This document shows, one piece after another, positions 9,839 to 51,017 of a stretch of 64,000 nt of DNA. Source of the DNA: Rhodanobacter sp. AS-Z3 (lineage in GTDB: Bacteria; Pseudomonadota; Gammaproteobacteria; Xanthomonadales; Rhodanobacteraceae); assembly GCF_029224025.1 (NCBI RefSeq), contig NZ_CP119392.1:457001-521000 (forward strand). The letters run 5' to 3'. The position numbers and the translations under genes were made by a program. The notes below the pieces were generated by a model that saw nothing but the letters and a program-made list of their open reading frames with translations, was not told where the DNA came from and did no database searches. Every line of letters starts with the position of its first letter. Position 1 is the stretch's first letter.

Positions 9839-9841
9839 GCC

Positions 9842-10720: not shown

Positions 10721-10796
10721 GGATGGATAGCTACCGTTCGCGGAGGACGGTTAGATTAGCATTGCCGCAGCGGCGTGCCTGCACGCTTCAGTGAGC

Positions 10797-11888
10797 TCAG
10801 GCGCCGATCCGGCTGCCGCTGGCGGCGTCAAACAAGTGCAGCCGCTTGGGCACCAGGGTCAGCGGCATCTGACTGCCGGGCTCGGGCAGGGCCCGCGGCG
10901 ACACTCGCGAGACCAGCCTCTGGTCGCCGTAGCGCAGATTCAGAAAAACTTCGTTGCCGACCGGCTCGAGCACTTCGAGCTGCGCTGTGAGTGCGGAAAT
11001 GCCCGCTTCCATCGGCTGCAGATCCTCCGGCCGGACACCCAACACCACGGCACGCTCGCACCATGGTTGCCATGCCGAAGACGGCGGCGGCTCACCCAGA
11101 GTGATCTCGCCGTGCGCGGTGACCAAGGTCCAGCCACCATCGTGCTTCAAGGTGCCGTGCAGCAAGTTCATCGCCGGGCTGCCGAAGAAACCGGCAACGA
11201 ACAGGTTGGCGGGCTTGTCGTACAGGTTCATCGGCGTGTCGATCTGCTGGATCACGCCGCCATCCAGCACCACGATGCGCTGGCCCAGCGTCATCGCCTC
11301 GATCTGGTCATGGGTGACGTAGACCATGGTGGCCTTGAGCTGGCGATGCAGCCGGGCGATCTCCACCCGCATCGACAGCCGCAACTTGGCGTCCAGATTG
11401 GACAGCGGCTCGTCCAGCAGGAATACCTTGGGATCGCGCACTAGCGCGCGGCCCAGTGCTACGCGCTGACGCTGGCCGCCGGACAACGCACCTGGACGCG
11501 ACGCCAGCCGTGCTTCCAGCTCCAGGGTTTTTGCGGCGCCCGCTACGCGCTGGTCGATGTCGGCCTGTTTGTGCCCGCGCAACTTCAGACCGAAGCCCAG
11601 GTTTTCCGCCACCGTCATGTGCGGATACAACGCGTAATTCTGGAACACCATAGCGATGTCACGATCTTTCGGAGGCAAGTCGTTGACCACCCGACCGTCG
11701 ATTTCCAGCGTGCCATCGCTGATTGTTTCCAGCCCGGCGATCATCCTCAGCAAGGTGGTCTTGCCGCAGCCAGAGGGCCCCACCAGCACCAGCAACTCGC
11801 CGTCGGCGATCTCGAAACTGGCGTCGACCACGCCAACGTGGCCGTTCGGATAGATCTTGCGCAAATTCTTCAGGCGTACGGTGGCCAT
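10797..11888 (-). CDS. MalK/UgpC/MsmK-type sugar ABC transporter ATPase
   Basis: Cytoplasmic ATPase for CUT1 sugar importers, 363 residues from MATVRLKNLRKIYPNG; the GGAG site spaced 6 nt favours this ATG over the one two codons earlier. Walker A GPSGCGKTT, Q-loop VFQNYALYPHMT, signature LSGGQRQRVALGRAL, Walker B VFLLDEPLSNLD and switch THDQ are all intact. A C-terminal TOBE-type regulatory domain (VVLGVRPEDLQPME) follows. No permeases adjoin it. The nearest partners are the lipoprotein and permeases at 20760-23769, which lack their own ATPase. It is divergent from the GH1 gene. Confidence 0.93.
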   Translation of the reverse strand: MATVRLKNLRKIYPNGHVGVVDASFEIADGELLVLVGPSGCGKTTLLRMIAGLETISDGTLEIDGRVVNDLPPKDRDIAMVFQNYALYPHMTVAENLGFGLKLRGHKQADIDQRVAGAAKTLELEARLASRPGALSGGQRQRVALGRALVRDPKVFLLDEPLSNLDAKLRLSMRVEIARLHRQLKATMVYVTHDQIEAMTLGQRIVVLDGGVIQQIDTPMNLYDKPANLFVAGFFGSPAMNLLHGTLKHDGGWTLVTAHGEITLGEPPPSSAWQPWCERAVVLGVRPEDLQPMEAGISALTAQLEVLEPVGNEVFLNLRYGDQRLVSRVSPRALPEPGSQMPLTLVPKRLHLFDAASGSRIGA

Positions 11889-11956
11889 CAACATCTCCGC
11901 AGGGTTGGACGCGATCGCCCGTCATTGTCAGCCGTCTGGCTCCAGCATGCGCGGTC

Positions 11957-12004
11957 TGCACAGCGGCGGAACATTGCGCTATTCTGCCCATGTAATCGTT
12001 TACA
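11957..12004 (+). promoter_or_regulatory. Putative promoter with LacI-type operator before the GH1 gene
   Basis: A possible -35 TGCACA (11957-11962) and -10 TATTCT (11980-11985), 17 bp apart, precede the palindrome TGTAATCGTTTACA (11991-12004). The operator has a CG centre and TGTAA/TTACA arms, a classic LacI-family layout, and would overlap the transcription start. It also sits in the malK-GH1 divergent region, so it could control both. The similar site TGAAAACGTTTACG lies before the lacI gene (11 of 14 positions equal). Confidence 0.55.
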
Positions 12005-12031
12005 TCAAGCACTTTGATTGCAGGAACCCCG

Positions 12032-13387
12032 ATGACGCGTGCCAGCTTCCGCTTTCCCGACGGCTTTCACTGGGGTGCCGCCACCTCTGCCTACCAGATC
12101 GAAGGCTCGCCGCTGGCCGACGGGGCCGGGCCCAGCATCTGGCAGCGGTTCGCCCATACGCCGGGGATGATGTCCAACGGTGACACCGGCGATATCGCCT
12201 GCGATCACTACCGTCGCTACAAGGATGACGTGCAGCTGATGAAGGCGCTGGGCCTGCAGGGCTATCGCTTCAGCATCAACTGGGCACGGGTGTTGCCCGA
12301 GGGCACCGGGCGAGTCAATCCGAAGGGGCTGGATTTCTATTCGCGACTGGTCGACGAACTGCTTGAAAACGGCATCGTGCCGAACGCCACGCTGTTCCAC
12401 TGGGACTTGCCGGCGGCGCTGGATGACCGCGGCGGCTGGCTCAACCGCGACGTTGCGCACTGGTTTGCCGAATACGCCGAAGTGATGTTCAAGGCGCTGG
12501 ACGACCGCGTGCCGCGCTGGGCCACGCTGAACGAACCGTGGGTGGTCACCGACGGCGGCTACCTGCACGGTGCGCTGGCACCTGGCCATCGCAGCAAGTA
12601 CGAGGCGCCGATCGCCGCGCACAACCTGATGCGCGCCAGTGGCGCCGGCATCCAGGCGTATCGGGCGCACGGCCAGCACGAGATCGGCGTGGTGTTCAAT
12701 ATCGAGCCGAAATACCCGCACTCCGACAGCGCCGAAGACCTCGCCGCCACGCGCCGCGCACATGCCTACATGAATGAGCAGTTTGCCGATCCGGCGCTGC
12801 TTGGCAGCTACCCGCCGGAACTAAAAGAGATTTTTGGCGATGCGTGGCCCGATTTCCCCGAAGACGACTTCAAGCTGACGAATCAGAAGGTCGACTTCGT
12901 CGGTATCAATTACTACACGCGCGCCGTGGTGAAAAATGATCCGAATGCCTATCCGCTGAAGGCAGTGCCGGTACGCCAGCCGAACAAGACCTATACGGAA
13001 ACCGGCTGGGAAGTGTTCGAGCAGGGCCTGACCGACACGCTCACGTGGTTCAAGCAGCGCTACGGCGACATCCCGCTGTACATCACCGAAAACGGTTCGG
13101 CTTTCTACGACCCGCCGGTGGCCGAAAACGGCGTACTCGACGATCCGCTGCGCACCAACTATCTGCGCAAGCACCTCAAGGCACTGCACAAGGCGATCGA
13201 GGCCGGAGTGAACCTGAAGGGTTATTACGCGTGGTCGCTGATGGACAACCTGGAGTGGTCGCTGGGTTTCTCCAAGCGCTTCGGCCTGTACCACGTCGAC
13301 TTCGCCACCCAGCAGCGCACGCCAAAAGCCACGGCGAAGCTGTATGCGCAAGTGATCGAGAGCAACGGCAGCATCCTGGACGCGTAG
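12032..13387 (+). CDS. GH1 family beta-glucosidase
   Basis: Retaining beta-glucosidase of 451 residues, no signal peptide, hence cytoplasmic. It opens SFRFPDGFHWGAATSAYQIE, as GH1 enzymes do. The acid/base Glu168 lies in TLNEPWVV and the nucleophile Glu353 in ITENGSAF. Other substrate-site segments are FHWDLP, FVGINYYT and SLMDNLEWSLGFSKRFGLY. ATG 12032 has an AGGA site; a TTG six codons earlier is less likely. In this setting it would cut imported beta-gluco-oligosaccharides to glucose; linkage preference cannot be read from sequence. Confidence 0.95.
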   Translation: MTRASFRFPDGFHWGAATSAYQIEGSPLADGAGPSIWQRFAHTPGMMSNGDTGDIACDHYRRYKDDVQLMKALGLQGYRFSINWARVLPEGTGRVNPKGLDFYSRLVDELLENGIVPNATLFHWDLPAALDDRGGWLNRDVAHWFAEYAEVMFKALDDRVPRWATLNEPWVVTDGGYLHGALAPGHRSKYEAPIAAHNLMRASGAGIQAYRAHGQHEIGVVFNIEPKYPHSDSAEDLAATRRAHAYMNEQFADPALLGSYPPELKEIFGDAWPDFPEDDFKLTNQKVDFVGINYYTRAVVKNDPNAYPLKAVPVRQPNKTYTETGWEVFEQGLTDTLTWFKQRYGDIPLYITENGSAFYDPPVAENGVLDDPLRTNYLRKHLKALHKAIEAGVNLKGYYAWSLMDNLEWSLGFSKRFGLYHVDFATQQRTPKATAKLYAQVIESNGSILDA

Positions 13388-13388
13388 A

Positions 13389-13455
13389 AGCCCGCTCGCG
13401 GGCGATGCTCTGGCTTTTGCAATTCCCGCCAAAAGGCATCGCCCGCGAGCGGGCT
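13389..13455. repeat. Perfect 20-bp inverted repeat between convergent genes
   Basis: Arms 13389-13408 and 13436-13455 are exact reverse complements built on GCCCGCTCGCGGGC. It begins one base after the GH1 stop and ends 21 bp before the rsmG stop, so it probably shields the two convergent transcripts from each other. It belongs to the GC-rich palindromes that recur in this window but differs in core sequence from those at 4526 and 8884. Confidence 0.75.
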
Positions 13456-13476
13456 CCTGCGCGACACGCCGACCCG

Positions 13477-14106
13477 TCAGCTGCGACCGATCACCAGCAG
13501 ATGGCGTTCGGCTGGCAGGCCCGGCACCGCCAACTCGTGCGTACTGCGTACGGCGAAGCCTGACGGAATGCCAGGCAACTCCTCGTCCGGCCGCTTCCCC
13601 TTCATCGCCAGCCAGATTCCGTCCGGCGCCAGCAGGTGGCCGCCCCAGCCGAGCATGTCGGCGAGACTGGCGAACGCACGCGCGGTTACGCAATCGAACT
13701 GACCTTCGACGTCTTCCACGCGCGACTGCTCGGCGCGCACGCCTTCCAGCTTCAGCGTGCGGATTGCCTCACGCAGGAAGCGCACCTTCTTGCCATTCGA
13801 ATCCACCAAAAGGATTTGTCGACCCGGCGCGGCAATCGCCAGCACAATGCCGGGCAGGCCGGGACCGGTGCCGAGATCGGCCAGAGTCTGGCCCCGCACA
13901 TACGGCAGGATCGCCAGCGAATCGAGCAGGTGGCGGGTGACCATCTCCTCCGCATCACGCACGGCAGTGAGGTTGTAGGTCGCATTCCAGCGCTGCAACA
14001 GCGCCTGGTAGTCGAGCAGACGCGGCACCGCCTCAGCAGGCAAATCCAGGCCAAGCGCGGCAATGCCTTGTTCGAGTCGTGCCTGCAGAGCGTCGCGGCT
14101 GGTCAT
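13477..14106 (-). CDS. rsmG: 16S rRNA (guanine-527-N7)-methyltransferase
   Basis: SAM-dependent enzyme (GidB) that methylates G527 of 16S rRNA; loss gives low-level streptomycin resistance in other bacteria. The 209-residue protein from MTSRDALQARLEQG has YQALLQRWNATYNLTAVRD, the SAM motif LADLGTGPGLPGIVLAI and VTARAFASLADML. A longer in-frame reading upstream (to 14259) crosses a terminator and is not supported. The gene usually borders parAB; here GH1 and malK lie between. Confidence 0.96.
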   Translation of the reverse strand: MTSRDALQARLEQGIAALGLDLPAEAVPRLLDYQALLQRWNATYNLTAVRDAEEMVTRHLLDSLAILPYVRGQTLADLGTGPGLPGIVLAIAAPGRQILLVDSNGKKVRFLREAIRTLKLEGVRAEQSRVEDVEGQFDCVTARAFASLADMLGWGGHLLAPDGIWLAMKGKRPDEELPGIPSGFAVRSTHELAVPGLPAERHLLVIGRS

Positions 14107-14182
14107 CGGATCACTCGGGTGCGTGGGGGCGCAAGTATCAGCGGCTGGCGCCGGGCTTGCCAACCCCGACTCAAAGATCAGG

Positions 14183-14207
14183 TAAAAAGAAACCCGCCGA
14201 AGCGGGT
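14183..14207 (-). terminator. Rho-independent terminator after the SPFH-like gene
   Basis: On the minus strand ACCCGC-TTCG-GCGGGT is followed by TTTCTTTTT. It lies about 60 bp past the stop of the gene ending at 14269 and upstream of rsmG, so rsmG should have its own promoter in 14107-14182. Confidence 0.85.
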
Positions 14208-14268
14208 CGAAAACTTGAAATCCCCTGTGGCGCGGACGCTCTCGGGCGCCCTGGCGCAACTCCGCTAC

Positions 14269-14727
14269 TCAGGCGGCGTCCAACTCAACGCGCGTCACCA
14301 TCATTCCGCGTTCCCGCAGTGCACTGTTCAAGGAATGTTTCACCCGTGCACCCACATCGCGCCGATCGGCGCCATCGGCGGCCGGCTCGTTGCGCAGTGC
14401 CTCGCGGGCACCGCGACGGATCAATTGATCAACTTGTTCGAACACGGCATCGGCGCGCTCCGGCTCCAACACCTGCCAGTAGACGGTGCCACGCATATCG
14501 CCGGCGTCGTCTTGCCGCGCGTCCAGCCGCAGCGTCTGACCAGCGAGGTCAATCTTGTGCGCAACCCGATCCAGCAATGGCAAGACCAGATGCGTTCCCT
14601 GCTGCAGAACACGCACCAACTTGCCGCGACGGTACAGGCTGTAGACGTGACCGGCCGGCACATGCCGGATCGCGCTGGCGATCAGCACGGCAGCAAGGGG
14701 AAACAGGAGGGCGGATAGAGTCATCAT
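14269..14727 (-). CDS. Small SPFH/band-7-like membrane protein
   Basis: 152 residues from ATG 14727 (14724 is also possible). One N-terminal transmembrane helix (LSALLFPLAAVLIASAI) is followed by VPAGHVYSLYRRGKLVRVLQ and GTHLVLPLLDRVAHKIDLAG, the usual opening of SPFH domains. TVYWQVLEPERADAVFEQVD and VKHSLNSALRERGMMVTRVE come next. It ends where longer stomatin/HflK-type proteins continue into a coiled coil. No protease or NfeD partner is adjacent. Function unknown; the family call rests on motif resemblance. Confidence 0.6.
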   Translation of the reverse strand: MMTLSALLFPLAAVLIASAIRHVPAGHVYSLYRRGKLVRVLQQGTHLVLPLLDRVAHKIDLAGQTLRLDARQDDAGDMRGTVYWQVLEPERADAVFEQVDQLIRRGAREALRNEPAADGADRRDVGARVKHSLNSALRERGMMVTRVELDAA

Positions 14728-15097
14728 GGTCTTCAGAAACAACAAGTTGTCTTGCTTTTATTGAGAAAGTGGAACAACTAAAGAATACAGTTGTTTGAGT
14801 CCACGAATATTAACCTTCATTTAACGATGTGGCCAAGGCTTGGGCGGGGATTCCAGAACGACCTGTGGCAATACCTGTCAGGAAATCGGGAAGTACACGA
14901 CTGACAAGCCTGAATCGTGCCAGCCACTTGAATGCTGCGGCGCCATAGCGCGGTCTTTGCGCCCACGGATCAGCGAAGGGGTGAATCTGTGACGGGCATC
15001 GCGTTCGGATACCGTTAACTTGTTGCACTGCAACGTGGAATCCCTTTTACAAGCGCTTTACAACGTGCCATGAAAACGTTTACGTTGGCGCTGTGCA
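14728..15097. other. 370-bp intergenic region between the SPFH-like gene and lacI
   Basis: A divergent promoter region, more AT-rich than its surroundings near 14750-14825. It contains a small hairpin (ACAACT 14774-14779 with AGTTGT 14789-14794) and, next to lacI, two LacI-type operator-like sites (see the separate entry). A 72-codon leftward reading frame (14810-15028) has no family signature and is considered chance. No RNA gene was recognised. Confidence 0.5.
15047..15084 (+). promoter_or_regulatory. Two LacI-family operator-like sites before the lacI-type gene
   Basis: TGAAAACGTTTACG (15071-15084) matches 11 of 14 positions of the palindrome at 11991-12004. A second element, TTACAAGCGCTTTACA (15047-15062), has an AAGCGCTT palindromic core, another common LacI-family form. 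Both lie within 55 bp upstream of the regulator start, consistent with autoregulation. This is inferred from sequence shape only. Confidence 0.45.
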
Positions 15098-16168
15098 ATG
15101 GTTCTTGCGGTCTCCGCCATACATTGCAAGCCACACCATGCCAGTGAGGTTGCCATCATCAAAGCTGCCACCATCAAGGATGTCGCGCGTGAGGCCGGTG
15201 TATCCGTGGCCTCGGTATCGCGCGCGCTAAATGGCGGCAGCGGGGTCACCGCGGAGACTGGCCAGCGCATCCACGAAGTGGCCAAACGCCTGCGTTACGT
15301 GCCACATGCGGCCGCCCGCATGCTGATCACCCGGCGCACCAACACGGTCGGCGCGCTGCTGCCGGACTTGTACGGTGAATTCTTTTCCGAGCTGATCCGC
15401 GGCATCGACCTGGCCGCGCGCGCCCGCGGTATGCATCTGCTGGTTTCCAGTTCGCACGACGATGCCGAGACCGCGGCGCTCGCCCTGCGCGCGATGCAGG
15501 GCCGGGTCGACGGCCTGTTGCTGATGTCGCCCCACGCCAATGCTGACTTTTTGCGGCAGAATCTGCCGCAAAACATCCCTACTGTGCTGATGAACACACG
15601 TTTGTCCGGCACCGACTACTGCTCGCTGTCGGTGGACAACGACGGCGGGGCCCGGCTGATGGTCGAGCACATGCTGGCGCAAGGGCGTCAGCGGATTGCC
15701 TTCATCGAAGGTCCGTCCGGCAATCGCGATGCCGAGCAGCGCAAACTGGGCTTTCGCGAAACCCTCGCCAGCCATGGCCTGGCGAGCGCCGCAACGATGC
15801 TGCAAGGAGACTTCAGCGAAGCATCCGGTTACCGCGCCGGCCAGCAGCTGCTGGCCATGGAAACGCGACCCGATGCCGTGTTCGCCGCCAACGACATGAT
15901 GGCGATCGGTTGCATGGCGGCCTTGCGCGAAGCCGGCGTGCGTATTCCGCAGGAGCTGGCCGTGGGCGGCTTCGATGACGTGCCCATGGCACGTTATGTC
16001 ACGCCATCGCTGACCACGATCAAGGTGCACATTGCCGACCTGGGCAGCGAGGCTATGGCCTGGCTGGGCGAGCAAATTGATGATTCAACCGGAATGCGAA
16101 TCGGCACCCGGCGCAAAGTTTCTGCCGAATTGGTGGTACGGGCGTCCAGCGCCGTGGCGTCCGGCTGA
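15098..16168 (+). CDS. LacI/GalR-family transcriptional regulator
   Basis: Sugar-responsive regulator of 356 residues as drawn. The helix-turn-helix and hinge are ATIKDVAREAGVSVASVSRA with LNG following, then the periplasmic-binding-protein-like sensor core (TNTVGALLPDLYGEFFSELI, PDAVFAANDMMAIGC, VGGFDDVPMARYVTPSLTT). The HTH begins about 24 residues after the ATG at 15098, which lacks a good ribosome-binding site. The true start may be a nearer non-ATG codon. Position directly before the receptor and glycosidase operon, plus the operator-like sites, suggests it controls this locus. Confidence 0.9.
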   Translation: MVLAVSAIHCKPHHASEVAIIKAATIKDVAREAGVSVASVSRALNGGSGVTAETGQRIHEVAKRLRYVPHAAARMLITRRTNTVGALLPDLYGEFFSELIRGIDLAARARGMHLLVSSSHDDAETAALALRAMQGRVDGLLLMSPHANADFLRQNLPQNIPTVLMNTRLSGTDYCSLSVDNDGGARLMVEHMLAQGRQRIAFIEGPSGNRDAEQRKLGFRETLASHGLASAATMLQGDFSEASGYRAGQQLLAMETRPDAVFAANDMMAIGCMAALREAGVRIPQELAVGGFDDVPMARYVTPSLTTIKVHIADLGSEAMAWLGEQIDDSTGMRIGTRRKVSAELVVRASSAVASG

Positions 16169-16333
16169 CCGCATTTTTGAATACTGGCGCTGGATCGCGC
16201 CGGAAAGAACCGAGTTTTCCAAGGTCGGTTCGAGGCAGGCGAATCGGAGCACTGGTTCGCGGGCAGCATCACGTCAACATCTCGACGAAGCGTTCCACCT
16301 CAATTTGCAACGATTACGGGAGAGGATCAGGTC

Positions 16334-19165
16334 ATGGTCAAACAACATACGTTATCCAGGCACATCTCGCTGGCGCTTGCCGGCCTGCTGGTCACCGCAC
16401 TCGCCCTGCCGGCGGCACACGCGCAGTCCAGCACCGCCGTCCTGCGCGGACACGTCAGCGCGCCGCAAGGCCAGATGCCGACCGAGGTGGTTGCCACCAA
16501 TACCGCCAACGGCTTCGTCAGCAAGACCAAGGTCGGCGCAGACGGCAACTACACTCTGGCGGGGTTGAGCCCAGGCAGTTACACCATCGTCGCCAGTGGC
16601 AACGGCAGCAGCACCAGTCGTACCGTCACCGTGCAGGTAGGCCAGGCCTTAAGCCTCAATCTGGATGCCGGTGCTGCCGCCACCGGACCCAGCACCAGCG
16701 ATGCAACGAACCTGCAGGGCGTTTCGGTGAGCGCGGTCACCCTGGTTGAAACACGCACCTCGGAAGTGGCCACCAACATCAGCCAGAAGCAGATCCAGGA
16801 ATTACCGCAGAACGAGCGCAACTTCCTTGACTTCGCCAAGCTGGTTCCCGGCATCACCACCTCACGCGACCCCAACTCCAAAACGTTCTCGGCGGGCGGT
16901 CAATCAGCCGAGAATGTAAACGTTTTCATCGACGGCGCCAGCCTGAAGAACAACGTGCTCAAGGGCGGCATCGCCGGCCAGGACTCCACCCGCGGCAACC
17001 CGTTCTCGCAGGAAGCGGTGCAGGAATTCCGCGTACTGACCAACAACTTCAAGGCCGAATACGAGCAGGCCGGCACGGCAATCATCACCGCGGTGACCAA
17101 GTCGGGCACGAACGACTTCCATGGTTCGCTCTACGACTACTACCAGAACCAGTCGATGATCGCGCAGAACTCGTTTGACAAGGAAAACCACGTCAAGAAA
17201 CCCGAGTACAAACGCGAACAACGCGGCTTCAGTTTTGGCGGCCCTATCATCAAGGACGTGGCGCAGTTCTTCATCAACTACGAGGAACGCAAGGACACCG
17301 CCAACACCACCGTGCAGATCAACGACCCGCGATTCGCTCAGTACAACGGCACATTCTCGGCACCGTTCAACGAAAAGGCATTCTTCGGCAAGTTGAGCTG
17401 GCAGCCGAACCACGACAACAACGTCGACCTCAGCCTGACCACCCGGCGCGACAGCGAGCAGCTCGGTTTTGGCGGCAACACCGCCTACACCGCGCGCAGC
17501 AACCGCAAGAACAACGTCGACGATCTGCTGCTGAAATGGCAATCGCGCGGCGAAAGCTATACCAATGACTTGTTGCTGGATGCCGGCACCGCGAGGTGGC
17601 ATCCCACCTCCGCTCAATCTGGCAACGTGCGCAGCGTGTACGATCCGGGCATCGCGGTGATCGGCAGCGGCAGCGACCTGCAGGACAAGGGCCAGAACCA
17701 GCGCACCATCCGCGACGACTTCACCTGGTTCGGCTTGCCCGATCACACGATCAAGGCGGGTATCAAATACGCCACTTACGGCATCACGCTGGAACAGAAC
17801 AGCGCCACCGTGCCGACCTACTACTACCAGGAAGGAAGTGCTTATCCCGGCGGCTTCAACTCGCCTTACCAGGCCGTGTACTCGCCGAGCGGCGCCAGCG
17901 CCAACCTGCACACCAACCAGCTCGGCCTGTACGTGCAGGATGACTGGGATATCACCCAGCGACTGCAGCTGAATCTCGGTCTGCGTTGGGACTACGAGAC
18001 CAACGCGCTGAACAAGGATTACGTGACCCCGGCCGTGCAGGTCCCCACGTTGCAATACCTGGGTCTGCAGAACTACATCAGCAATGGCCACAACCGCGAC
18101 GGCTACAAGGGTGCGATCCAGCCGCGGCTGGGCTTCTCGCTGGACGTCAGCAAAGACGGCGACCAGAGCACCACCGTCTTCGGCGGTGTTGGCCGCTATT
18201 ACGACCGCACTCCGTTTGACTGGATCAGCCAGGAAAAACTGCATTCGCTGGTACCGAACTACACCTTCCGGTTCAGCCCCGGCGGCGTCACCCCCGGGAC
18301 CATCGCCTGGGATCCGAGCTACCTGACCGCGGCTGGCCTGAATGGCCTGTTGGCTTCGGGCTCTGCCGGCTTTACCAGCGAATTGGACGTGGTCAACAAC
18401 AACACCAAGCCGCCGCACACGGACCAGTTCAGCCTGGGTGTGCGTCAGGTAATGGGAGACTGGAACGCATCACTGACCCTGACTCGCGTGCTGGGCTATG
18501 ACCAGTTCACCTGGGTATGGAACCGTCTGCCGCAGCCAGGCTTCGTGCTCAATCAAATGCCGGGCAGTCCTTACGGTGTCGTCCTGCACAACACCGACAA
18601 GAAAACGCAATCCAGCAACGTACTGGTCAGCATCAACAAGCCGTACACGGAAGCGTCGGGCTGGGGCATGGGGCTGGCCTACACGTATCAGGACGCTCAT
18701 CAGCAAGGTGGTGACAACTACTCGCTGGACTATGTCGATCCCGCTGGTTATTACGCCAACAACGTGGGCGAAAAGCAGCATCTGGTACTGAACGGAATCG
18801 TACGCGGCCCGTGGGACACACGTTTGACCGGCATCTTCACCTACGGCTCGGGCTTGCCGTACGACTACTTCGCCAACGTGCCCGGTTGCGACTACAACTG
18901 CATCTTCTACAAGAACGGCAAGTACGGTCAGAAGTATCTCAACCTGGACCTGTCGATCGCCAAGGAGTTCCACTGGGGCGAGAGCCAGGCGCTGGAACTG
19001 CGCTTTGACGTGATGAACGTGTTCAACCGTGATGTCGACAACGGTTACATCAACAACCAGTACAACTGGGGCTCGATGAATCCGAACCCGGACTTCGGCA
19101 AGGTGACCAGCGCCGATCCGAACCAGACCCGTCGCTTCCAGATTGGCGCGCGCTATTCGTTCTGA
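16334..19165 (+). CDS. TonB-dependent receptor with N-terminal carboxypeptidase-like domain (Oar-type)
   Basis: Outer-membrane receptor of 943 residues for energised uptake of a large ligand, here probably a glucan oligosaccharide. It has a signal peptide ending AAHA (residue 30). A beta-sandwich of the CarboxypepD_reg type follows (about 33-110; GNYTLAGLSPGSYTIVASG). A TonB-box-like NLQGVSVSA lies at 126-134, then a plug (about 142-270; LPQNERNFLDFAKLVPGIT, EFRVLTNNFKAEYEQAG) and a 22-strand barrel ending RYSF. GGAGAGGA lies upstream of the ATG. It is 165 bp after lacI and co-oriented. Substrate is inferred from neighbours only. Confidence 0.92.
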   Translation: MVKQHTLSRHISLALAGLLVTALALPAAHAQSSTAVLRGHVSAPQGQMPTEVVATNTANGFVSKTKVGADGNYTLAGLSPGSYTIVASGNGSSTSRTVTVQVGQALSLNLDAGAAATGPSTSDATNLQGVSVSAVTLVETRTSEVATNISQKQIQELPQNERNFLDFAKLVPGITTSRDPNSKTFSAGGQSAENVNVFIDGASLKNNVLKGGIAGQDSTRGNPFSQEAVQEFRVLTNNFKAEYEQAGTAIITAVTKSGTNDFHGSLYDYYQNQSMIAQNSFDKENHVKKPEYKREQRGFSFGGPIIKDVAQFFINYEERKDTANTTVQINDPRFAQYNGTFSAPFNEKAFFGKLSWQPNHDNNVDLSLTTRRDSEQLGFGGNTAYTARSNRKNNVDDLLLKWQSRGESYTNDLLLDAGTARWHPTSAQSGNVRSVYDPGIAVIGSGSDLQDKGQNQRTIRDDFTWFGLPDHTIKAGIKYATYGITLEQNSATVPTYYYQEGSAYPGGFNSPYQAVYSPSGASANLHTNQLGLYVQDDWDITQRLQLNLGLRWDYETNALNKDYVTPAVQVPTLQYLGLQNYISNGHNRDGYKGAIQPRLGFSLDVSKDGDQSTTVFGGVGRYYDRTPFDWISQEKLHSLVPNYTFRFSPGGVTPGTIAWDPSYLTAAGLNGLLASGSAGFTSELDVVNNNTKPPHTDQFSLGVRQVMGDWNASLTLTRVLGYDQFTWVWNRLPQPGFVLNQMPGSPYGVVLHNTDKKTQSSNVLVSINKPYTEASGWGMGLAYTYQDAHQQGGDNYSLDYVDPAGYYANNVGEKQHLVLNGIVRGPWDTRLTGIFTYGSGLPYDYFANVPGCDYNCIFYKNGKYGQKYLNLDLSIAKEFHWGESQALELRFDVMNVFNRDVDNGYINNQYNWGSMNPNPDFGKVTSADPNQTRRFQIGARYSF

Positions 19166-19196
19166 TCATTTCGTGACATCCCAGTAGTCGATTCAC

Positions 19197-19267
19197 CCGT
19201 CCGTCCACGTCACACGGACGGACGTCTGGACGTCCAGCCTGACCTGCACGAGATGCAGTTCAGGCTG
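19197..19267 (+). promoter_or_regulatory. Stacked hairpins between the receptor and GH144 genes
   Basis: Three structures lie in the 134-bp gap. An 8-bp stem (19197-19204 with 19214-19221) is followed by a perfect 12-bp palindrome, CTGGACGTCCAG (19226-19237). A 14-bp stem with one mismatch (19235-19248 with 19254-19267, loop CGAGA) comes last. No T-run follows, so they are not standard terminators. They could attenuate or stabilise the receptor transcript relative to downstream genes. Confidence 0.6.
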
Positions 19268-19299
19268 GCGTCGCATACTCAAAGTACGGCAGACCGATC

Positions 19300-20763
19300 A
19301 TGAAGCTTCCCCACCGGCCCGCATGGCTTTCCTCTCTCCTTCTTGGCGCGGCGCTGTTACTGGCAGCTCCAGCCAGCCCCGCCTGGCAGGCACAACCGGC
19401 CACCCCGGAAGCAAGCCGCAGCAGCGCTGAAGTACCCGCGCTGGTCAACGATCTCGAACAGCGCACCTTCCGCTTTTTCTGGGACAGCGCGGATCCGGCT
19501 ACAGGCCTGGTTCCTGATCACTATCCCGGCGAGTCCTTCTCCAGCATTGCCGCGGTGGGCTTCGGCCTGACCGCTTACGGCGTGGGCGTGGAGCGTGGCT
19601 ACATCACCCGCGAGCAGGCGATCGAGCGCACGCTGGCCACGCTGCGTTTCTTCGACACCGCGCCGCAGGGTGACAGCGAAGACGACGACAGCGGCTATCA
19701 CGGTTTCTTCTATCACTTCCTCGACATGAAGAGCGGCAAGCGCTTCGCGCGCTGGACCGAAGTCTCCACGGTGGACACCAGCCTGCTGCTGGGCGGCGTG
19801 TTGTTTGCACAGTCGTACTACGACCGCGACACCCCGGCCGAACACGAGATCCGCACGCTGGCCGATCGCATCTATCGCCGCGTCGACTGGCCCTGGGCAC
19901 AAGTGCGGCCGCCGTTGATCAGCATGGGCTGGACGCCCGGCGGCAAGTTCATCCCGCATGACTGGGAGGGCTACAACGAGGCGATGCTGGTCTATGTACT
20001 GGCACTGGGTTCGCCAACCCATCCGGTGGACTCCGATGCATGGTCGGCATGGACCGGTACCTACGACCGCAGCTGGGGCAAGTTCCAAGGTCAGCAACTG
20101 TTGAATTTCGGCCCGCTGTTCGGCCACCAGTACAGCCATGTATGGATCGACTTCCGCGGCATCCGCGACGCCTGGAATCGCCAGCATGACTTGGACTATT
20201 TCGAGAACAGCCGCCGCGCGGTGATCGCCCAGCGCAACTACGCGATCACCAATCCGGGGCATTGGACCGGTTATGGCGCAAACGTGTGGGGTTTGACCGC
20301 CAGCAATGGTCCCGGCGGCATCCTCGTCGAGGGTCAAGGCCGCCGACAGTTCTACGGCTATACCGCGCGCGGCGCGGGACTGGGCTATCTGGTCGATGAC
20401 GGCACCATCGTGCCCAGCGCCGCCGCCGGTTCGATCGCCTTCGCACCCGAGCTGGTGATTCCCGCGCTGGAGGAAATGAAGCGCCGCTACGGCACCGCCA
20501 TCTACAACGAGCACGGTTTCGTTGATGCGTTCAATCCCAGCTTCCACGTGCAAACCCTGCTGCGTACCGGCAAAGTGCTGCCGATGGGCTGGGTCGATAG
20601 CGAACAGCTCGGCATCGACCAGGGCCCGATCGTGTTGATGATCGAGAACTGGCGCAGCGACTTCGTGTGGAACGTGATGAAGAAGAATCCGTACATCCGC
20701 AAGGGACTTCAGCGCGCCGGCTTCGAAGGCGGCTGGCTGGATGCGCCGGTACCGGCAAAATGA
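19300..20763 (+). CDS. Glucoamylase-like (PF10091) / GH144-type endo-beta-1,2-glucanase
   Basis: Exported protein of 487 residues with signal peptide (LSSLLLGAALLLAAPASPA). The remainder is an (alpha/alpha)6 enzyme of the Pfam Glycoamylase group: TFRFFWDSADPATGLVPDH, GFGLTAYGVGVERGYI, WTEVSTVDTSLLLGGVLFAQ, WEGYNEAMLVYVLALGSP, FGHQYSHVWIDFRGIRD. Stand-alone proteins of this kind define GH144, whose characterised members are endo-beta-1,2-glucanases releasing sophoro-oligosaccharides. It begins the glycosidase-transport operon; its stop overlaps the next start (ATGA). The family call is firm, the linkage is inferred. Confidence 0.85.
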   Translation: MKLPHRPAWLSSLLLGAALLLAAPASPAWQAQPATPEASRSSAEVPALVNDLEQRTFRFFWDSADPATGLVPDHYPGESFSSIAAVGFGLTAYGVGVERGYITREQAIERTLATLRFFDTAPQGDSEDDDSGYHGFFYHFLDMKSGKRFARWTEVSTVDTSLLLGGVLFAQSYYDRDTPAEHEIRTLADRIYRRVDWPWAQVRPPLISMGWTPGGKFIPHDWEGYNEAMLVYVLALGSPTHPVDSDAWSAWTGTYDRSWGKFQGQQLLNFGPLFGHQYSHVWIDFRGIRDAWNRQHDLDYFENSRRAVIAQRNYAITNPGHWTGYGANVWGLTASNGPGGILVEGQGRRQFYGYTARGAGLGYLVDDGTIVPSAAAGSIAFAPELVIPALEEMKRRYGTAIYNEHGFVDAFNPSFHVQTLLRTGKVLPMGWVDSEQLGIDQGPIVLMIENWRSDFVWNVMKKNPYIRKGLQRAGFEGGWLDAPVPAK

Positions 20764-22076
20764 TTCACTCGGCGCGTCAGCAACGATGGCGGCGTGGGCT
20801 GTGCATGGCCAGCATCGTCTTGTGCAGTGCCTTGCTGGGCAGTTGTAAGCAGGCATCGGACAGCCACGAACTCGTGTTCTGGACGATTGGCCGCGAAGGC
20901 GAAGCCGTGGTCAAATTGCTGCCGGCGTTCGAGCGCGCGCATCCGGATATCCGTGTGAAAGTTCAGCAGCTGCCGTTGACTGCTGCGCACCAGAAATTGC
21001 TCACCGCGTTCGCCGGCGACTCCACCCCGGATCTCAGCCAGCTTGGCAACACCTGGCTGCCCGAACTGGCGGCGCTGCACGCACTGGAACCATTGCAGGT
21101 GCGGGTCGACCATTCGAGCGTGATCCAGCCGTCCGACTACTTCGCCAGCATCTGGTCCACCAATGTGATTGAGGGCACCCTGTACGGCGTACCGTGGTAT
21201 GTCGACACGCGTTTGTTGTTCTATCGCAACGACCTGTTGAAGGCTGCTGGCTTCGATGCGCCACCGCGTACCTGGGCTGAATGGCGACGCATGCTGGGCG
21301 CGCTCAGCGATCCGTCGCAACATCGCTACGGCGTATTGCTTCCAACCAACGAGTACGAGCAATTGATGTCGCTGGGATTGCAGCAAGACGATCCGCTGCT
21401 GCGTGATGGCGGACGCTACGGGAATTTCGAGAGTGCCGGCTTCAAGCGCGCGCTGACGTTCTATGTCGACACCTTCCGGCTGCAGCAGGCGCCGGCAATC
21501 ACCAACGTGGAAGCGGGCAATCCGTGGACGGAATTTGGTCGCGGCGTCTACGCGTTCTATCTGTCCGGGCCGTGGAACATCGGCGAGTTCCGTTCGCGCC
21601 TGCCGGCCCTTGAGCAGGACGATTGGTCTACCGCACCACTGCCCGGTCCGAGCAGTCCCGGTGTCGGCGTAGCCGGCGGTTCGAGCCTGGTGATCTTCCG
21701 GCGCTCACCGCACAAAGAGGCTGCCTGGAAGTTGATTGAATACCTGTCGCAGCCGGCCGTGCAGCAGCAGTTTTACGACCTGCTTGGCGACATGCCGCCA
21801 CGGCGCAGCTCATGGGAAGGCGGCGCATTGCGCGACGATCCGAAGGCACGCGCTTTTCGCGAACAGCTGGAACAGGTGAAACCTGCGCCGGCGGTGCCGG
21901 AATGGGAACGCATCGCCAACGAAATGCAGCTGGTCGCCGCCCAGGTGATCGCCGGCCGACTGACGATCGACCAGGCCGCCGTTGAGATGGACCACCGCGC
22001 TGATGCGATTCTGGCCAAGCGACGCTGGGTGCTGGACCACGCTGCAGCGAGTCATGCGAAGGAGCCCACACGATGA
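20760..22076 (+). CDS. CUT1 ABC transporter sugar-binding lipoprotein
   Basis: Extracytoplasmic solute receptor of 438 residues. It starts MIHSARQQRWRRGL and has a lipobox ending LLGSC (Cys29), so it is probably anchored on the periplasmic side. Family segments are LVFWTIGREGEAVVKLLPAF, PDLSQLGNTWLPELAAL, TLYGVPWYVDTRLLFYRNDL and FYLSGPWNIGEF. Start and stop both form ATGA overlaps with neighbours, implying translational coupling. Ligand is unknown; neighbouring enzymes suggest a beta-gluco-oligosaccharide. Confidence 0.92.
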   Translation: MIHSARQQRWRRGLCMASIVLCSALLGSCKQASDSHELVFWTIGREGEAVVKLLPAFERAHPDIRVKVQQLPLTAAHQKLLTAFAGDSTPDLSQLGNTWLPELAALHALEPLQVRVDHSSVIQPSDYFASIWSTNVIEGTLYGVPWYVDTRLLFYRNDLLKAAGFDAPPRTWAEWRRMLGALSDPSQHRYGVLLPTNEYEQLMSLGLQQDDPLLRDGGRYGNFESAGFKRALTFYVDTFRLQQAPAITNVEAGNPWTEFGRGVYAFYLSGPWNIGEFRSRLPALEQDDWSTAPLPGPSSPGVGVAGGSSLVIFRRSPHKEAAWKLIEYLSQPAVQQQFYDLLGDMPPRRSSWEGGALRDDPKARAFREQLEQVKPAPAVPEWERIANEMQLVAAQVIAGRLTIDQAAVEMDHRADAILAKRRWVLDHAAASHAKEPTR

Positions 22077-22951
22077 ATCCGCAGCGTACGGCCTGGTTGT
22101 TCCTTGCCCCCGCGCTGGTCGTGCTGGGAGTGTTCTTCCTGCTGCCGGTGCTTGCCGCGCTCGCGCTCAGTCTTACCGATTACGACCTGTACGCGCTGGC
22201 AAACATTCACAACCTGCGCTTCGTGGCGTTGGGCAATTATTGGGAACTGCTCCACCGGCCGCTGTTCTGGGCTGCACTGGGACACACGGTGTACTTCGTC
22301 GCGCTAGGCGTGCCCTTGTCGATGGGCGCGTCGCTCGGCGCGGCGATGTTGCTGAACTCACCGCTGGCGACAGCGAAGCCGTTCTTCCGCACGGCGCTGT
22401 TCGCGCCGGTGGTGACCACGGTGGTCGCCACCGCCGTGATCTGGCGCTATCTGTTCAACACCAAGTACGGCATGGCGAACTATCTGCTGGGACTGGTCGA
22501 TATTCACCCGGTGGACTGGCTGGGTGATCCGCACTGGGCGATGCCGACGATCATCGCGTTCGCGGTGTGGAAAAACTTTGGCTACAACATGATCATCTTC
22601 CTCGCTGGCCTGCAGGCGATTCCGCCGGACCTGTACGAGGCTGCACGTATCGACGGCGCGTCGCCCTGGCGGCAGTTCCGTCACATCACCTTGCCAATGC
22701 TGAAACCGACCATGTTGATGGTCGGCATCCTCACCGTGTCCGGCTACTTCCAGCTGTTTGCCGAGCCGTACGTGATGACCGAAGGCGGGCCACTGCAAAG
22801 CACGGTCAGCGTGCTGTACCTGATGTACGACGAAGGCTTCAAGTGGTGGAACCTCGGCTCCGCTTCCGCCGTGGCGTTCCTGTTGTTCGTGATCATGTTC
22901 GCAGTGACCGTGCTGATGCTGAAGCTGTCGCAGCGGGGAGACCAGACATGA
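22073..22951 (+). CDS. Sugar ABC transporter permease, MalF/UgpA type
   Basis: Inner-membrane subunit of 292 residues with six predicted helices starting at LFLAPALVVLGVFFLLPVLA. The EAA coupling loop YEAARIDGASPWRQFRHITL docks the ATPase. It overlaps the genes on both sides by ATGA and pairs with the MalG-type protein downstream. The ATPase is expected to be the MalK homologue at 10797-11888, since none is encoded in this operon. Confidence 0.94.
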   Translation: MNPQRTAWLFLAPALVVLGVFFLLPVLAALALSLTDYDLYALANIHNLRFVALGNYWELLHRPLFWAALGHTVYFVALGVPLSMGASLGAAMLLNSPLATAKPFFRTALFAPVVTTVVATAVIWRYLFNTKYGMANYLLGLVDIHPVDWLGDPHWAMPTIIAFAVWKNFGYNMIIFLAGLQAIPPDLYEAARIDGASPWRQFRHITLPMLKPTMLMVGILTVSGYFQLFAEPYVMTEGGPLQSTVSVLYLMYDEGFKWWNLGSASAVAFLLFVIMFAVTVLMLKLSQRGDQT

Positions 22952-23769
22952 GCCCACGACTGGCCAAGGCGCTGATCAACGGTCTGCTCATCGGGGTGGC
23001 GGCGGTCGCACTGTTTCCGTTGCTGTGGATGTTGTCGGTGTCGTTCATGGCGCCGGGTGCCGCCAGCACGCTGCCACCGCCGTTGTTGCCGCGCCATGCC
23101 AGCTGGGACAACTATCGCGAACTGTTCGTGCATGCCGGCATGGGCCGCTACCTGATCAACAGCTTGCTGGTCGCCGGCGCGATCACCGTGCTCTCGGTGG
23201 TTTTCAATTTGCTGGCCGGCTATGCGTTCGCCAAGCTGCGTTTCGCTGGTCGCGAGCGATTGTTTCAGGCACTGCTTGGCGCACTGGTGATTCCCGCCCA
23301 GGTCGCCATGCTGCCGTTGTTCCTGCTGCTGAAATACATGGGCCTGGTGAACAGCTATGCCGGCGTGGTGGTGCCAGCGCTGGCCACCGTGTTCGGCATT
23401 TTCCTGGTACGCCAGTACGCACGCGGCATTCCCGATGAATTGCTCGAAGCGGCGCGGATCGACGGCGCCAGCGAGTCGCGCATCTTCGTGCAGATCGTGC
23501 TGCCACTGCTGAAGCCGATTGTCGTGACGCTGGCGATCTTCACCTTCCTCGCCGCGTGGAACGACTTCATGTGGCCGCTGATCGTGCTGACCGGACAGGA
23601 GCACTACACGCTGCCGATCGGGTTGGCCTCGCTGGCGCGCGAACATTCGCAGGACAGCGAACTGATGATGGCCGGCTCAGTCGTCACCGTACTGCCGGTG
23701 CTGCTCTTGTTCCTGTCGATGCAGCGCTACTACCTCGAAGGACTGCTGCTGGGCAGTGTGAAGGGTTGA
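22948..23769 (+). CDS. Sugar ABC transporter permease, MalG/UgpE type
   Basis: Second permease subunit, 273 residues from MSPRLAKALINGLLIG (ATGA overlap with the preceding stop). It has six helices, the EAA loop LEAARIDGASESRIFVQIVL, and the usual C-terminal FLSMQRYYLEGLLLGSVKG, which inserts toward the ATPase. It is followed after 2 bp by the large glycosidase-like gene, so the five genes from 19300 to 26552 look like one transcription unit. Confidence 0.94.
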   Translation: MSPRLAKALINGLLIGVAAVALFPLLWMLSVSFMAPGAASTLPPPLLPRHASWDNYRELFVHAGMGRYLINSLLVAGAITVLSVVFNLLAGYAFAKLRFAGRERLFQALLGALVIPAQVAMLPLFLLLKYMGLVNSYAGVVVPALATVFGIFLVRQYARGIPDELLEAARIDGASESRIFVQIVLPLLKPIVVTLAIFTFLAAWNDFMWPLIVLTGQEHYTLPIGLASLAREHSQDSELMMAGSVVTVLPVLLLFLSMQRYYLEGLLLGSVKG

Positions 23770-23771
23770 CG

Positions 23772-26552
23772 ATGCGCCACGGTCATCTCGTGCTACTGGC
23801 CTTGCTGCTTGTAAGCAACGTTGTAGGTGCCGAGACCGCAGCGCGAACGCTCGACGATTTCAGTCAACCGAATCGCTGGACGGCTGCGGCCACCGATGAC
23901 ATCCGTGCCACGCTGCACCCGGCCAGCGCTCCACACGGCAAGGCGATCTGTCTGGAGTTCAACTTCAACGGTGTATCCGGCGGCCCCAGCCTGCGTCGTC
24001 GCCTGCCCATCACCTTTCCGGAAAATTACGCCTTGTCATTTGACGTGCGCGGCACCATGCCGCCGAATGACCTGCAAGTGAAGCTGATCGATGCCAGCGG
24101 CGACAACGTGTGGTGGTACCGCCGCGAGCACTTCACGCCAACGGACGCATGGCAGACCATCACTGCAAACAAGCGCGATATCGTTTCCGCGTGGGGGCCG
24201 GCGAAGGACCGAACGCTGCGCCAGACACAGACCGTGGAATTCACTCTTTATGCAGGGCAGGGTGGCCGTGGCGATTTTTGCGTCAGCAATCTGCGTTTGA
24301 CGCCGTTGCCGCCAGCAGCCGTAGACGAACCCACGCCAGCCAGCCTCACGCCAAACGCCGTGCTGATGCAGCAAGCCAGGCATGCAGCACGCGGCATCTA
24401 CCCACGTGGCTTCTCCGGTGAGCAGAGTTACTGGACGCTGGTTGGCGTCGACGGTGGCGCGGCAAAATCAGCGCTGATCTCCGAAGATGGCGCGGTGGAG
24501 GTGCGCAAGGGCGGCTGGTCGATCGAGCCGATGTTGCTCGACGGCAACCAGCTGATCGACTGGGCCACGGTGCAGACTAGGCAAAGTCTGCAAGACAATT
24601 ACCTGCCGATCCCCACGGTGCATTGGCAGACCGACGGCGTGCAACTGGACACCACCGCCTTCGCCAGCGGCACGCCGCAGCAGACGAACCTGCTGCTGCA
24701 ATACCGCCTCTCCAACCGCCGCAATAAACCACGCACGCTGACGCTGGCCTTGCTGTTGCGACCGTTCCAGGTCAACCCGCCAACGCAATTCCTCAATACC
24801 CCGGGCGGGATCAGTCCGATCACGGATCTGCGCTGGGACGGTCACGCCGTGCAGATCAACCACGCGTTGCAGGTGGTGTCGCTGCAGCCCGGCGACTTCG
24901 TCGCCAGCGCCCATGGTGCGATCACCCTCCCGGAGCGGTTGGCCGCAGGCGAACGTCCGCAGCTGCGCACGCTGCACGATGCAAGCGGGTACGCACAGGG
25001 TGCGCTGTTGTACCGACTGACTGTGCCGCCGCACGCAACCATCACGCTGGGGCTGGTGGTGCCTTCGAGCCCGGCGTCATTCAAGCCACCGGCCGATGCG
25101 GCAGCGTGGCTGAAACAGCAACGCGATGAAGTGGCGGCAGCGTGGCGCGTGAAGCTCAACCACGTGACGCTTGCGTTGCCCGCCGCGCAGCAGGATTTAG
25201 CTGACACCGCGCGCAGCGCACAAGCGCAGATGCTGATGTCACGCGATGGCCCGGCGTTTCAGCCAGGCACGCGCTCCTACGCGCGCACGTGGATCCGCGA
25301 TGGCGCGATGATGAGCGAGGCGTTGCTGCGCAGCGGTCACAGCGATGTGGTCGGCGCCTTCGTGCGTTGGTACGCGCCGCATCAGTTCAATACCGGCAAG
25401 GTGCCTTGCTGCGTTGACGCGCGCGGTTCGGACCCGGTACCGGAGAACGACAGCCAGGGCGAGCTGCTGTTCACCATCGCGGAGTGGTGGCGTTTCAGCC
25501 ATGACCTTTCCGGCCTGAAGAAGCTGTGGCCGCACGTGGAGCACACGGTGGCGTACATGGACCAGCTGCGCAACAGTGAGCGCACTTCGGCGCAGCAGGG
25601 CACCGCGCTGTACGGCCTGATGCCGGCGTCGATCAGCCACGAAGGCTATTCGGCCAAGCCGATGCATTCGTACTGGGACGACTTCTGGGCACTGCGCGGC
25701 TACGACGATGCGATCGCGCTGGCCAATGCCCTCGACAAACCTGATGAAGCGGCGCGCTTCACTGCCTCGCGGGATGTTTTACGCAGCGATTTGCAGTCGT
25801 CGATCCTCGCCGCAACGCGTGAACACGCCATCTACTACGTTCCCGGTGCGGCCGAACTGGGCGACTTCGATCCAACCTCCACCACCATCGCGCTGTCACC
25901 CGCCGGTGCGCAGGAGTGGCTGCCGCCGGCCTTGCTGCAACAAACCTTCGAACGCTACTGGCAGGATTTCATCGCGCGTCGCGACGGCAGCAAGGCGTGG
26001 GACGACTACACGCCGTACGAATGGCGCAACGTGGGGGCGTTTGTGCGGCTGGGCTGGCGCGAACGGATTCCGCAACTGCTCGCTTTTTTCATGGCTGACC
26101 GGCGACCAGCGGCGTGGAACCAGTGGGCCGAGGTGGTCGGGCATGACCCGCGCAAGCCGCGTTTCGTCGGCGACATGCCGCACGCATGGATCGCCTCGGA
26201 CTACCTGCGTTCGCTATACGACATGTTTGCATGGGAGCGTGCCAGCGATCACGCGCTCGTTCTGGCGGCAGGCATTCCCGCTGCGTGGTTGCGCCAAGGT
26301 CACATCGACATCGAGGGATTGCGGACGCCTTACGGTGAGCTGCACTACTCGCTGCGAGAGCAGCATGACCAGCTGCAGCTTGAGGTAAGCGACGGATTGA
26401 GCTTGCCTTCCGGCGGTCTGGTTTTCCCGTGGCCGTATGCCGCTCAACCCAGCGGCAAGGCGTGGCTGAACGGCAAACCGGTGGCATGGCGCAACGGCGA
26501 GATCACGATACGCGAGCTGCCGGCAACGTTGAGGATCGAACGACCACGCTGA
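23772..26552 (+). CDS. Large exported glycosidase-like protein with N-terminal carbohydrate-binding-like module
   Basis: 926 residues from ATG 23772 (longer readings overlap the permease and are rejected). Signal peptide HLVLLALLLVSNVVGAE. Residues about 25-175 look like a jelly-roll CBM11/CIA30-type module (LDDFSQPNRWTAA, NYALSFDVRGTMPPNDLQVK, GRGDFCVSNLRLTPL). A beta-sandwich linker follows. An (alpha/alpha)6 barrel lies at about 470-870, with the opening SYARTWIRDGAMMSEALLRS, GKVPCCVDARGSDPVPENDS, GELLFTIAEWWRF and HSYWDDFWALRGYDDAI. I cannot assign a GH family. Last gene of the operon; likely acts in the periplasm or outside on the same glucan. Confidence 0.75.
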   Translation: MRHGHLVLLALLLVSNVVGAETAARTLDDFSQPNRWTAAATDDIRATLHPASAPHGKAICLEFNFNGVSGGPSLRRRLPITFPENYALSFDVRGTMPPNDLQVKLIDASGDNVWWYRREHFTPTDAWQTITANKRDIVSAWGPAKDRTLRQTQTVEFTLYAGQGGRGDFCVSNLRLTPLPPAAVDEPTPASLTPNAVLMQQARHAARGIYPRGFSGEQSYWTLVGVDGGAAKSALISEDGAVEVRKGGWSIEPMLLDGNQLIDWATVQTRQSLQDNYLPIPTVHWQTDGVQLDTTAFASGTPQQTNLLLQYRLSNRRNKPRTLTLALLLRPFQVNPPTQFLNTPGGISPITDLRWDGHAVQINHALQVVSLQPGDFVASAHGAITLPERLAAGERPQLRTLHDASGYAQGALLYRLTVPPHATITLGLVVPSSPASFKPPADAAAWLKQQRDEVAAAWRVKLNHVTLALPAAQQDLADTARSAQAQMLMSRDGPAFQPGTRSYARTWIRDGAMMSEALLRSGHSDVVGAFVRWYAPHQFNTGKVPCCVDARGSDPVPENDSQGELLFTIAEWWRFSHDLSGLKKLWPHVEHTVAYMDQLRNSERTSAQQGTALYGLMPASISHEGYSAKPMHSYWDDFWALRGYDDAIALANALDKPDEAARFTASRDVLRSDLQSSILAATREHAIYYVPGAAELGDFDPTSTTIALSPAGAQEWLPPALLQQTFERYWQDFIARRDGSKAWDDYTPYEWRNVGAFVRLGWRERIPQLLAFFMADRRPAAWNQWAEVVGHDPRKPRFVGDMPHAWIASDYLRSLYDMFAWERASDHALVLAAGIPAAWLRQGHIDIEGLRTPYGELHYSLREQHDQLQLEVSDGLSLPSGGLVFPWPYAAQPSGKAWLNGKPVAWRNGEITIRELPATLRIERPR

Positions 26553-47966: not shown

Positions 47967-48101
47967 TTACGGGATGAGGCGCTTGCGGCCCTTGGCGCGA
48001 CGGGCGTTGAGAATCTTGCGACCGTCGGCGGTGGCCATACGGGCACGGAAACCGTGCGTGCGAGCGCGCTTGAGCTTGCTTGGCTGGAAGGTCCGCTTCA
48101 T
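47967..48101 (-). CDS. rpmH: 50S ribosomal protein L34
   Basis: 44-residue very basic ribosomal protein: [38 protein letters not shown], ending KRLIP. It has the family's exact length and the conserved rpmH-rnpA order next to dnaA. Divergent from dnaA across a 193-bp region with DnaA boxes. Confidence 0.98.
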
Positions 48102-48119
48102 GGCTTACTCCGAAGGGAA

Positions 48120-48232
48120 TGTGGATAAAAAGGTTGGAAAGTATGGCGGGCTTTTGCGGTCGCTGTCAAATGGTTGCAACTCGACTGCTGTGGACAGGCT
48201 TGTGGATATGTGGGCGGCCGGCCTGTGGATGA
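48120..48232. promoter_or_regulatory. DnaA-box cluster between rpmH and dnaA
   Basis: TGTGGATAA (48120-48128) is a perfect consensus DnaA box. TGTGGACAG (48189-48197), TGTGGATAT (48201-48209) and TGTGGATGA (48224-48232) differ at one or two positions. They all face the same way and precede the dnaA start by 63-175 bp, consistent with DnaA autoregulation or with one half of a bipartite origin. Confidence 0.8.
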
Positions 48233-50974: not shown

Positions 50975-51017
50975 CTTCCTGCGCATGGCTTTCGCGGTTA
51001 TCGGTAAAAAACTGAAG

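Follow-up and report, generated by a model that had tools for sequence, protein, structure and literature searches.

Many bacteria, plant symbionts and pathogens among them, have β-1,2-glucans as osmotic and signalling polymers, and the open-licence literature that we searched says little about how Gram-negative neighbours degrade these glucans. We analyzed a 64,000-nt stretch (the window) of the single-contig, 4.09-Mb genome of Rhodanobacter sp. AS-Z3, in which positions 10797 to 26552 hold a set of sugar-utilization genes that very probably forms a LacI-controlled scavenging system for β-1,2-glucans. New here are an operator that joins both units of this locus, a recurring layout that includes a link to the solved binding protein 3UOR, and a large enzyme with a fold like that of glycoside hydrolase (GH) families GH15 and GH94 that lies outside the named families.

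Gene content and layout

The operon on the forward strand begins with a LacI-family repressor (15098–16168; PF00356 and PF13377 above cut-off), the true start of which may be further in, and an Oar-type TonB-dependent receptor (16334–19165; PF25183, PF13620, Plug and TonB_dep_Rec above cut-off, together with OMP_b-brl_4). These are followed by an exported GH144 enzyme (19300–20763), a CUT1 solute-binding lipoprotein (20760–22076; SBP_bac_1, with the lipobox LLGSC recognized by eye), a CUT1 permease of the MalF type (22073–22951; PF00528, BPD_transp_1), a second of the MalG type (22948–23769; PF00528 on the overlapping open reading frame (ORF) 22567–23769, the start being read in the sequence) and a large exported putative glycosidase that is unclassified (23772–26552). 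These last five genes are tightly joined, as the first-pass annotation of this DNA had claimed: the sequence reads as ATGA overlaps between the GH144 stop (20763) and the lipoprotein start (20760), between the lipoprotein end (22076) and the MalF-type start (22073), and between the MalF-type end (22951) and the MalG-type start (22948), and the MalG-type end (23769) is set off from the large-protein ATG (23772) by a 2-bp gap. Signal-peptide-like N termini are visible by eye on GH144 and the large protein.

Upstream of the operon, a MalK/UgpC-type CUT1 ATPase on the reverse strand (10797–11894; PRK11650 UgpC at 475.4 bits against a cut-off of 432, with ABC_tran, OB_MalK and TOBE_2) and a GH1 β-glucosidase on the forward strand (12032–13387 from its ATG; TIGR03356 at 584.3 bits against a cut-off of 478.5 when run on ORF 12014–13387, and matches to GH1 structures) form a divergent pair. 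Neither a signal peptide nor a lipobox was seen by eye in GH1, which is on this basis predicted to be cytoplasmic. Pfam and family-model searches thus recovered every gene that had been named between 10797 and 26552, with two corrections to the proposed layout: gidB (ORF 13477–14259) detaches the GH1/MalK pair from the operon, and the large protein has 926 residues from the ATG at 23772, the 998-residue ORF beginning upstream.

The placement of the locus near the origin of replication, also suggested earlier, fits the parA, parB, gidB, mnmE, yidC, recF-like and gyrB genes in the window. gidB and parA–parB are usually neighbours, and here the MalK/GH1 pair (10797–14259 with gidB) is wedged between them; in Rhodanobacter sp. 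MP7CTX1 (L031), the pair comes after the large enzyme instead, with a GH39-family gene following GH1 (L031:15562-17151). GC content falls to 58 to 60% at 48001–60000, a stretch that includes the recF-like and gyrB genes, compared with mostly 61 to 65% elsewhere in the window. Searches of the window for tRNA and Rfam RNA genes returned none.

GH144, GH1 and the binding lipoprotein point to β-1,2-glucan

The GH144 protein matches PF10091 at 283.8 bits against a cut-off of 27 and lies near a characterized member of the family, its best solved match being 8xul (617.9 bits; next entry, 216 bits), which is XCC2207 (XcSGL) from Xanthomonas campestris. XcSGL shows 3.85 U/mg on β-1,2-glucan alditol (PMC12102758, Table 1), and the activity data of that paper give undetected activity on barley β-glucan, lichenan, laminarin, carboxymethyl (CM)-curdlan, pustulan and CM-cellulose, in a panel that does not extend to xylan. 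At the position of CpSGL E142, for which PMC12102758 proposes a general-base role, the window GH144 carries an acidic residue, D159; XCC2207 likewise has Asp, if its chain numbering is assumed to be that of the paper. These comparisons indicate that the window GH144 is probably an endo-β-1,2-glucanase. A β-glucan with other linkages (1,3-, 1,4- or 1,6-) might be considered as the substrate on the grounds that the GH1 and CUT1 families are broad; the inactivity of XcSGL on the six polymers listed argues against this, and we regard it as extremely improbable. A GH1 enzyme associated with β-1,2-glucan has been reported (PMC12369401), and there is therefore a precedent for a GH1 final step; the window GH1 may itself be specific for the β-1,2 linkage.

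The top solved match of the lipoprotein is 3uor from X. citri (498.9 bits), followed by Lin1841 (5ysb, about 211 bits) and a third entry at 115.8 bits. Lin1841, which stands 95 bits above the next entry, is the closest relative with a known ligand and binds β-1,2-gluco-oligosaccharides (PMC12369401). In a Xanthomonas euvesicatoria locus (L067), the binding protein that adjoins GH144 is near-identical to 3uor (930.6 bits); thus, the binding protein solved as 3UOR comes from a locus of this kind. The X. citri protein is named MalE and called putative maltose/trehalose-binding (PMC7676653), a name under which the locus would be an α-glucoside importer with GH144 present by chance, and the lipoprotein, permeases and ATPase are indeed of the MalEFGK type. 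However, a table in the same paper gives the specificity of 3UOR as unknown, the nearest known binder is Lin1841, the enzymes encoded alongside are GH144 and a β-glucosidase, and in X. campestris the receptor gene linked with maltose, and induced by it, belongs to a separate locus, XCC2469 (PMC1790865). On these grounds, we reject a maltose system, which we consider very unlikely. The ligand of 3UOR is thereby called into question: the protein is probably misnamed, and we infer that it may bind sophoro-oligosaccharides. β-1,2-Glucan or sophorose, the substrate originally guessed for the Rhodanobacter locus, fits GH144, the relatives of the lipoprotein and the GH1 precedent better than the other substrates considered.

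Recurrence of the locus in other bacteria

The large protein has at least 558 confirmed relatives; we compared the locus with those of the best 80, in each of which the large protein is hence present by construction. For the genes found, order is kept in all 80, more than chance would give, and these genes comprise the MalG-type permease (80), the MalF-type permease (79), the lipoprotein (78), GH144 (75), the receptor (70) and LacI (65); among the 74 loci for which over 9 kb of upstream DNA is available, 63 have all seven genes. GH1 and MalK were both found in 21 of the 80, and in 12 they are divergent and within 400 bp. The hosts include Xanthomonas, Stenotrophomonas, Lysobacter, Luteimonas, Luteibacter, Dyella and Duganella, and the layout recurs in Xanthomonadaceae, Rhodanobacteraceae and Duganella. 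We also surveyed 200 genomes drawn from the order, with thresholds of E ≤1e-70 for the lipoprotein and E ≤1e-60 for GH144. GH144 is found in 56 of them, the lipoprotein in 52 of these 56, and the large protein in 41 of these 52, each set being nested in the larger one. In one large-protein genome (G032), the match is of only 35% identity and may be to a paralogue.

The neighbourhoods vary among hosts. In the one Duganella locus examined (L043), a GH94 protein lies between GH1 and MalK, and its best solved match is a cyclic β-1,2-glucan synthase (849.7 bits). The corresponding stretch harbors glucokinase and a PF01182 gene (6-phosphogluconolactonase/glucosamine isomerase family) in Lysobacter (L103) and an ILVD/EDD-family gene in Luteimonas (L052); we read the PF01182 and ILVD/EDD genes as sugar-acid/Entner–Doudoroff genes, and all three neighbours are expected because glucose would be the end product. 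The genes examined there in Xanthomonas and Stenotrophomonas loci (L067 and L099) are unrelated. In one Rhodanobacter locus, a tryptophan-halogenase-family gene (L027:3733-5283; PF04820, 681 bits) is found between GH144 and a more distant, 35% identical TonB receptor, and Luteibacter loci show a gap with a similarly sized ORF at this position.

A palindromic operator shared by both units

The pattern TGTAAWCGWTTACA is found without mismatch in the divergent gap between MalK and GH1 (TGTAATCGTTTACA, 11991–12004) and with two mismatches just upstream of LacI (TGAAAACGTTTACG, 15071–15084). A third operator-like site, with one mismatch, falls within the receptor gene (16915–16928), and eight such matches are found inside the receptor genes of related loci. 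Allowing up to two mismatches, these three sites compare with a mean of 0.08 in shuffles and account for three of the six sites in the genome, of which the only zero-mismatch and the only one-mismatch site are both in the window. In the related loci, 87 sites with no more than one mismatch are distributed over 64 of the 80, compared with a mean of 0.1 and a maximum of two for 60 control palindromes shuffled from the operator's letters. When as many as two mismatches are allowed, the operator falls no more than 200 bp ahead of LacI in 54 of the 56 related loci that have sufficient DNA; all 12 divergent pairs have it between GH1 and MalK, and 42 of 75 loci have it no more than 350 bp ahead of GH144.

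A palindromic operator is therefore common to both units and rare elsewhere; its presence at LacI and again between GH1 and MalK indicates that the detached pair and the operon form one regulon. Repressor binding at these sites, and release by an inducer, are predicted. We found no paper on this operator in the open-licence PMC literature, with little of the searching aimed at it, and a word search of the main text of a 2014 survey of LacI regulons returned no mention of Xanthomonas. The regulon is supplied here for testing.

The large exported protein has a GH15/GH94-like fold

Sequences of the large protein were read from 79 of the 80 related loci (L104 omitted), of which 56 are non-redundant at 88%; two mis-framed sequences (L030 and L041) were dropped, and the final alignment (A2) holds the window protein and 45 of the 54 usable relatives, nine being omitted for size or odd length. 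No Pfam family matches the window protein at E 0.001. An AlphaFold2 model built from the 46 sequences has a mean predicted local distance difference test score of 88.7 and a predicted TM score of 0.89, and from its secondary structure and structural matches we read it as an N-terminal β domain, a supersandwich and an (α/α)6 barrel. The top Foldseek match is the dextran dextrinase 9ju0 (GH15; E 6.2e-19, 12% identity), followed by GH94 phosphorylases and, lower, by glucodextranase, rhamnosidases, fucosidases and GH65-type phosphorylases, some of these family numbers being those to which we take the structures to belong. Profile matches at E ≤0.1 are weak but agree with this picture (GH15-type TIGR01577 in 46/46, GH78-type PF17389 in 41/46 and amylo-α-1,6-glucosidase PF06202 in 20/46), the hhalign probability is 73.7 to GH94 and 9.6 to GH15, and an F5/8-type-C domain is matched in 34 of the 46.

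None of these families accommodates the window protein. As a plain GH15, it falls below cut-off (TIGR01577 at 23.7 bits against 820.7), and PF00723 is matched in 1 of the 46 sequences (E 0.042); as a GH94, it matches neither PF17167 nor PF06165; and as a plain GH78 or amylo-α-1,6-glucosidase, it passes no family cut-off, although among the 46 relatives the one that best matches the GH78 barrel (PF17389, E 1.2e-7) probably would. This failure of every family cut-off, like the shared operator, had escaped the first-pass annotation, which was to that extent incomplete. E624, E787, W507, R509 and D510 are invariant in all 46 aligned sequences. In the profile–profile alignment, E624 aligns with an invariant GH15 glutamate, and E787, paired by eye, is a candidate catalytic base, where the matched GH15 residues presumably have the catalytic roles that we assign to them. 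The protein is thus a putative enzyme of no classified family, for which candidate catalytic residues can be named. No paper on it was found in the open-licence PMC literature, little of the searching having been aimed at it.

Phosphorolysis is unlikely given the exported location, and the protein is predicted to be an inverting exported hydrolase. Exo-trimming of sophoro-oligosaccharides is a likelier role than one on α-1,6 linkages. It seems doubtful that the protein founds a new GH family that cuts the linkage left by GH144 in natural cyclic glucans, for example the single α-1,6 closure of the Xanthomonas cyclic glucohexadecaose; if it did, the locus would handle α-1,6-cyclised β-1,2-glucan. 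A pairing of the large enzyme with home-made α-1,6-cyclised glucan, tested as co-occurrence with MdoG-family genes in the 200 genomes, is unsupported. MdoG is found in 25 of the 41 genomes with the large enzyme, and all 25 belong to the family of Xanthomonas, in which 28 carry the enzyme; it is found in none of the 13 large-enzyme genomes of the window's own family, and five genomes have MdoG without the enzyme. Co-occurrence is thus confounded by descent.

A candidate route from receptor to glucose

Together, these genes make up a full candidate route. The Oar-type receptor would bring β-1,2-glucan or large fragments across the outer membrane, the exported GH144 would cleave the glucan to sophoro-oligosaccharides, and the large exported enzyme may trim or finish the fragments that GH144 leaves. 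The lipoprotein would pass the oligosaccharides to the two permeases, powered with the separately encoded MalK, and the cytoplasmic GH1 would convert them to glucose. The repressor is proposed to sit on two operators, one ahead of the operon that begins with its gene and the other in the MalK/GH1 gap; with one operator per unit, both units would therefore open together. The specificity of GH144 has been established by others for a close relative, and the gene content, conserved order, shared operator and large-enzyme fold are computed here.

Several observations weigh against this interpretation, in addition to the MalE name of 3UOR discussed above. GH144 also contains an exo enzyme (PMC12369401), and the endo action of the window protein therefore rests on its nearest relative. 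The genome total of operator sites is not in excess (six versus four for the reversed control pattern), and the operator signal is one of clustering and not of genome total; the pattern search places no site directly before GH144 or the receptor in the window, and 6 of the 80 related loci have no site at all. These loci are related to each other, so their counts are not independent. Finally, 11 of the 52 genomes with the lipoprotein and GH144 do not have the large enzyme, which is therefore accessory and not essential.

The glucan might also be the organism's own. The genome encodes, outside the window and some 32 kb ahead of the locus start, a full-length cyclic β-1,2-glucan synthase (L116:3009-11735, C1:427008-435734; 2908 residues, 2048 bits to NdvB, 8rf0), and the organism thus probably makes cyclic β-1,2-glucan as well. 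A second GH144, 42 to 44% identical, is encoded outside the window and divergently from a GH94 protein (L115:5930-10078 (−) and 9823-11394 (+)), perhaps as a second β-1,2-glucan locus; seven same-genus genomes listed likewise have two GH144 matches. The synthase and this GH144/GH94 pair would suit a system that recycles cyclic β-1,2-glucan of the cell or its kin. Such recycling involves the same substrate as the scavenging of foreign glucan, but a TonB receptor suggests uptake from outside and LacI control suits an occasional substrate, and we consider recycling unlikely as the purpose of the locus.

Comparison with known systems

The first-pass annotation could name no standard catabolic locus that pairs such a receptor with a CUT1 importer and the GH144 family, and in this it overlooked the TonB-receptor carbohydrate utilization (CUT) loci of X. 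campestris, named in 2007 (PMC1790865). As defined there, such a locus combines a receptor with genes for a transporter, a regulator and degrading enzymes, all of which are found in the window, and the X. campestris loci share with it a TonB receptor, an inner-membrane transporter, a LacI-type regulator and enzymes. The sux locus differs in that sucrose is taken up through a major facilitator superfamily transporter (PMC1790865). XCC2208, numbered next to XCC2207, appears in the same work among TonB receptors that lack a canonical plug domain. The Rhodanobacter locus is of this TonB-receptor CUT type, and transport of its substrate by the receptor, and induction by that substrate, are predicted.

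Listeria innocua is Gram-positive and, to our knowledge, has no TonB receptor. Its lin1839–1841 genes share with the window a homologous CUT1 binding protein and intracellular breakdown of β-1,2-gluco-oligosaccharides but encode GH94 and GH3 enzymes in place of GH1 (PMC12369401), although one Duganella locus of the present set carries GH94. Streptomyces griseus SGR_2422–2426 and related clusters share a GH1 β-1,2-glucosidase and ABC transporter genes; in the description given in PMC12369401, the genes named for them are GH193 and not GH144, with mention of neither a TonB receptor nor a counterpart of the large enzyme. Finally, the large enzyme has its overall fold in common with GH94 and with the GH15 dextran dextrinase and glucodextranase, and carries a W-x-R-D sequence that resembles the GH15 motif, but differs from both families in sequence, with 9 to 13% identity in the Foldseek matches.

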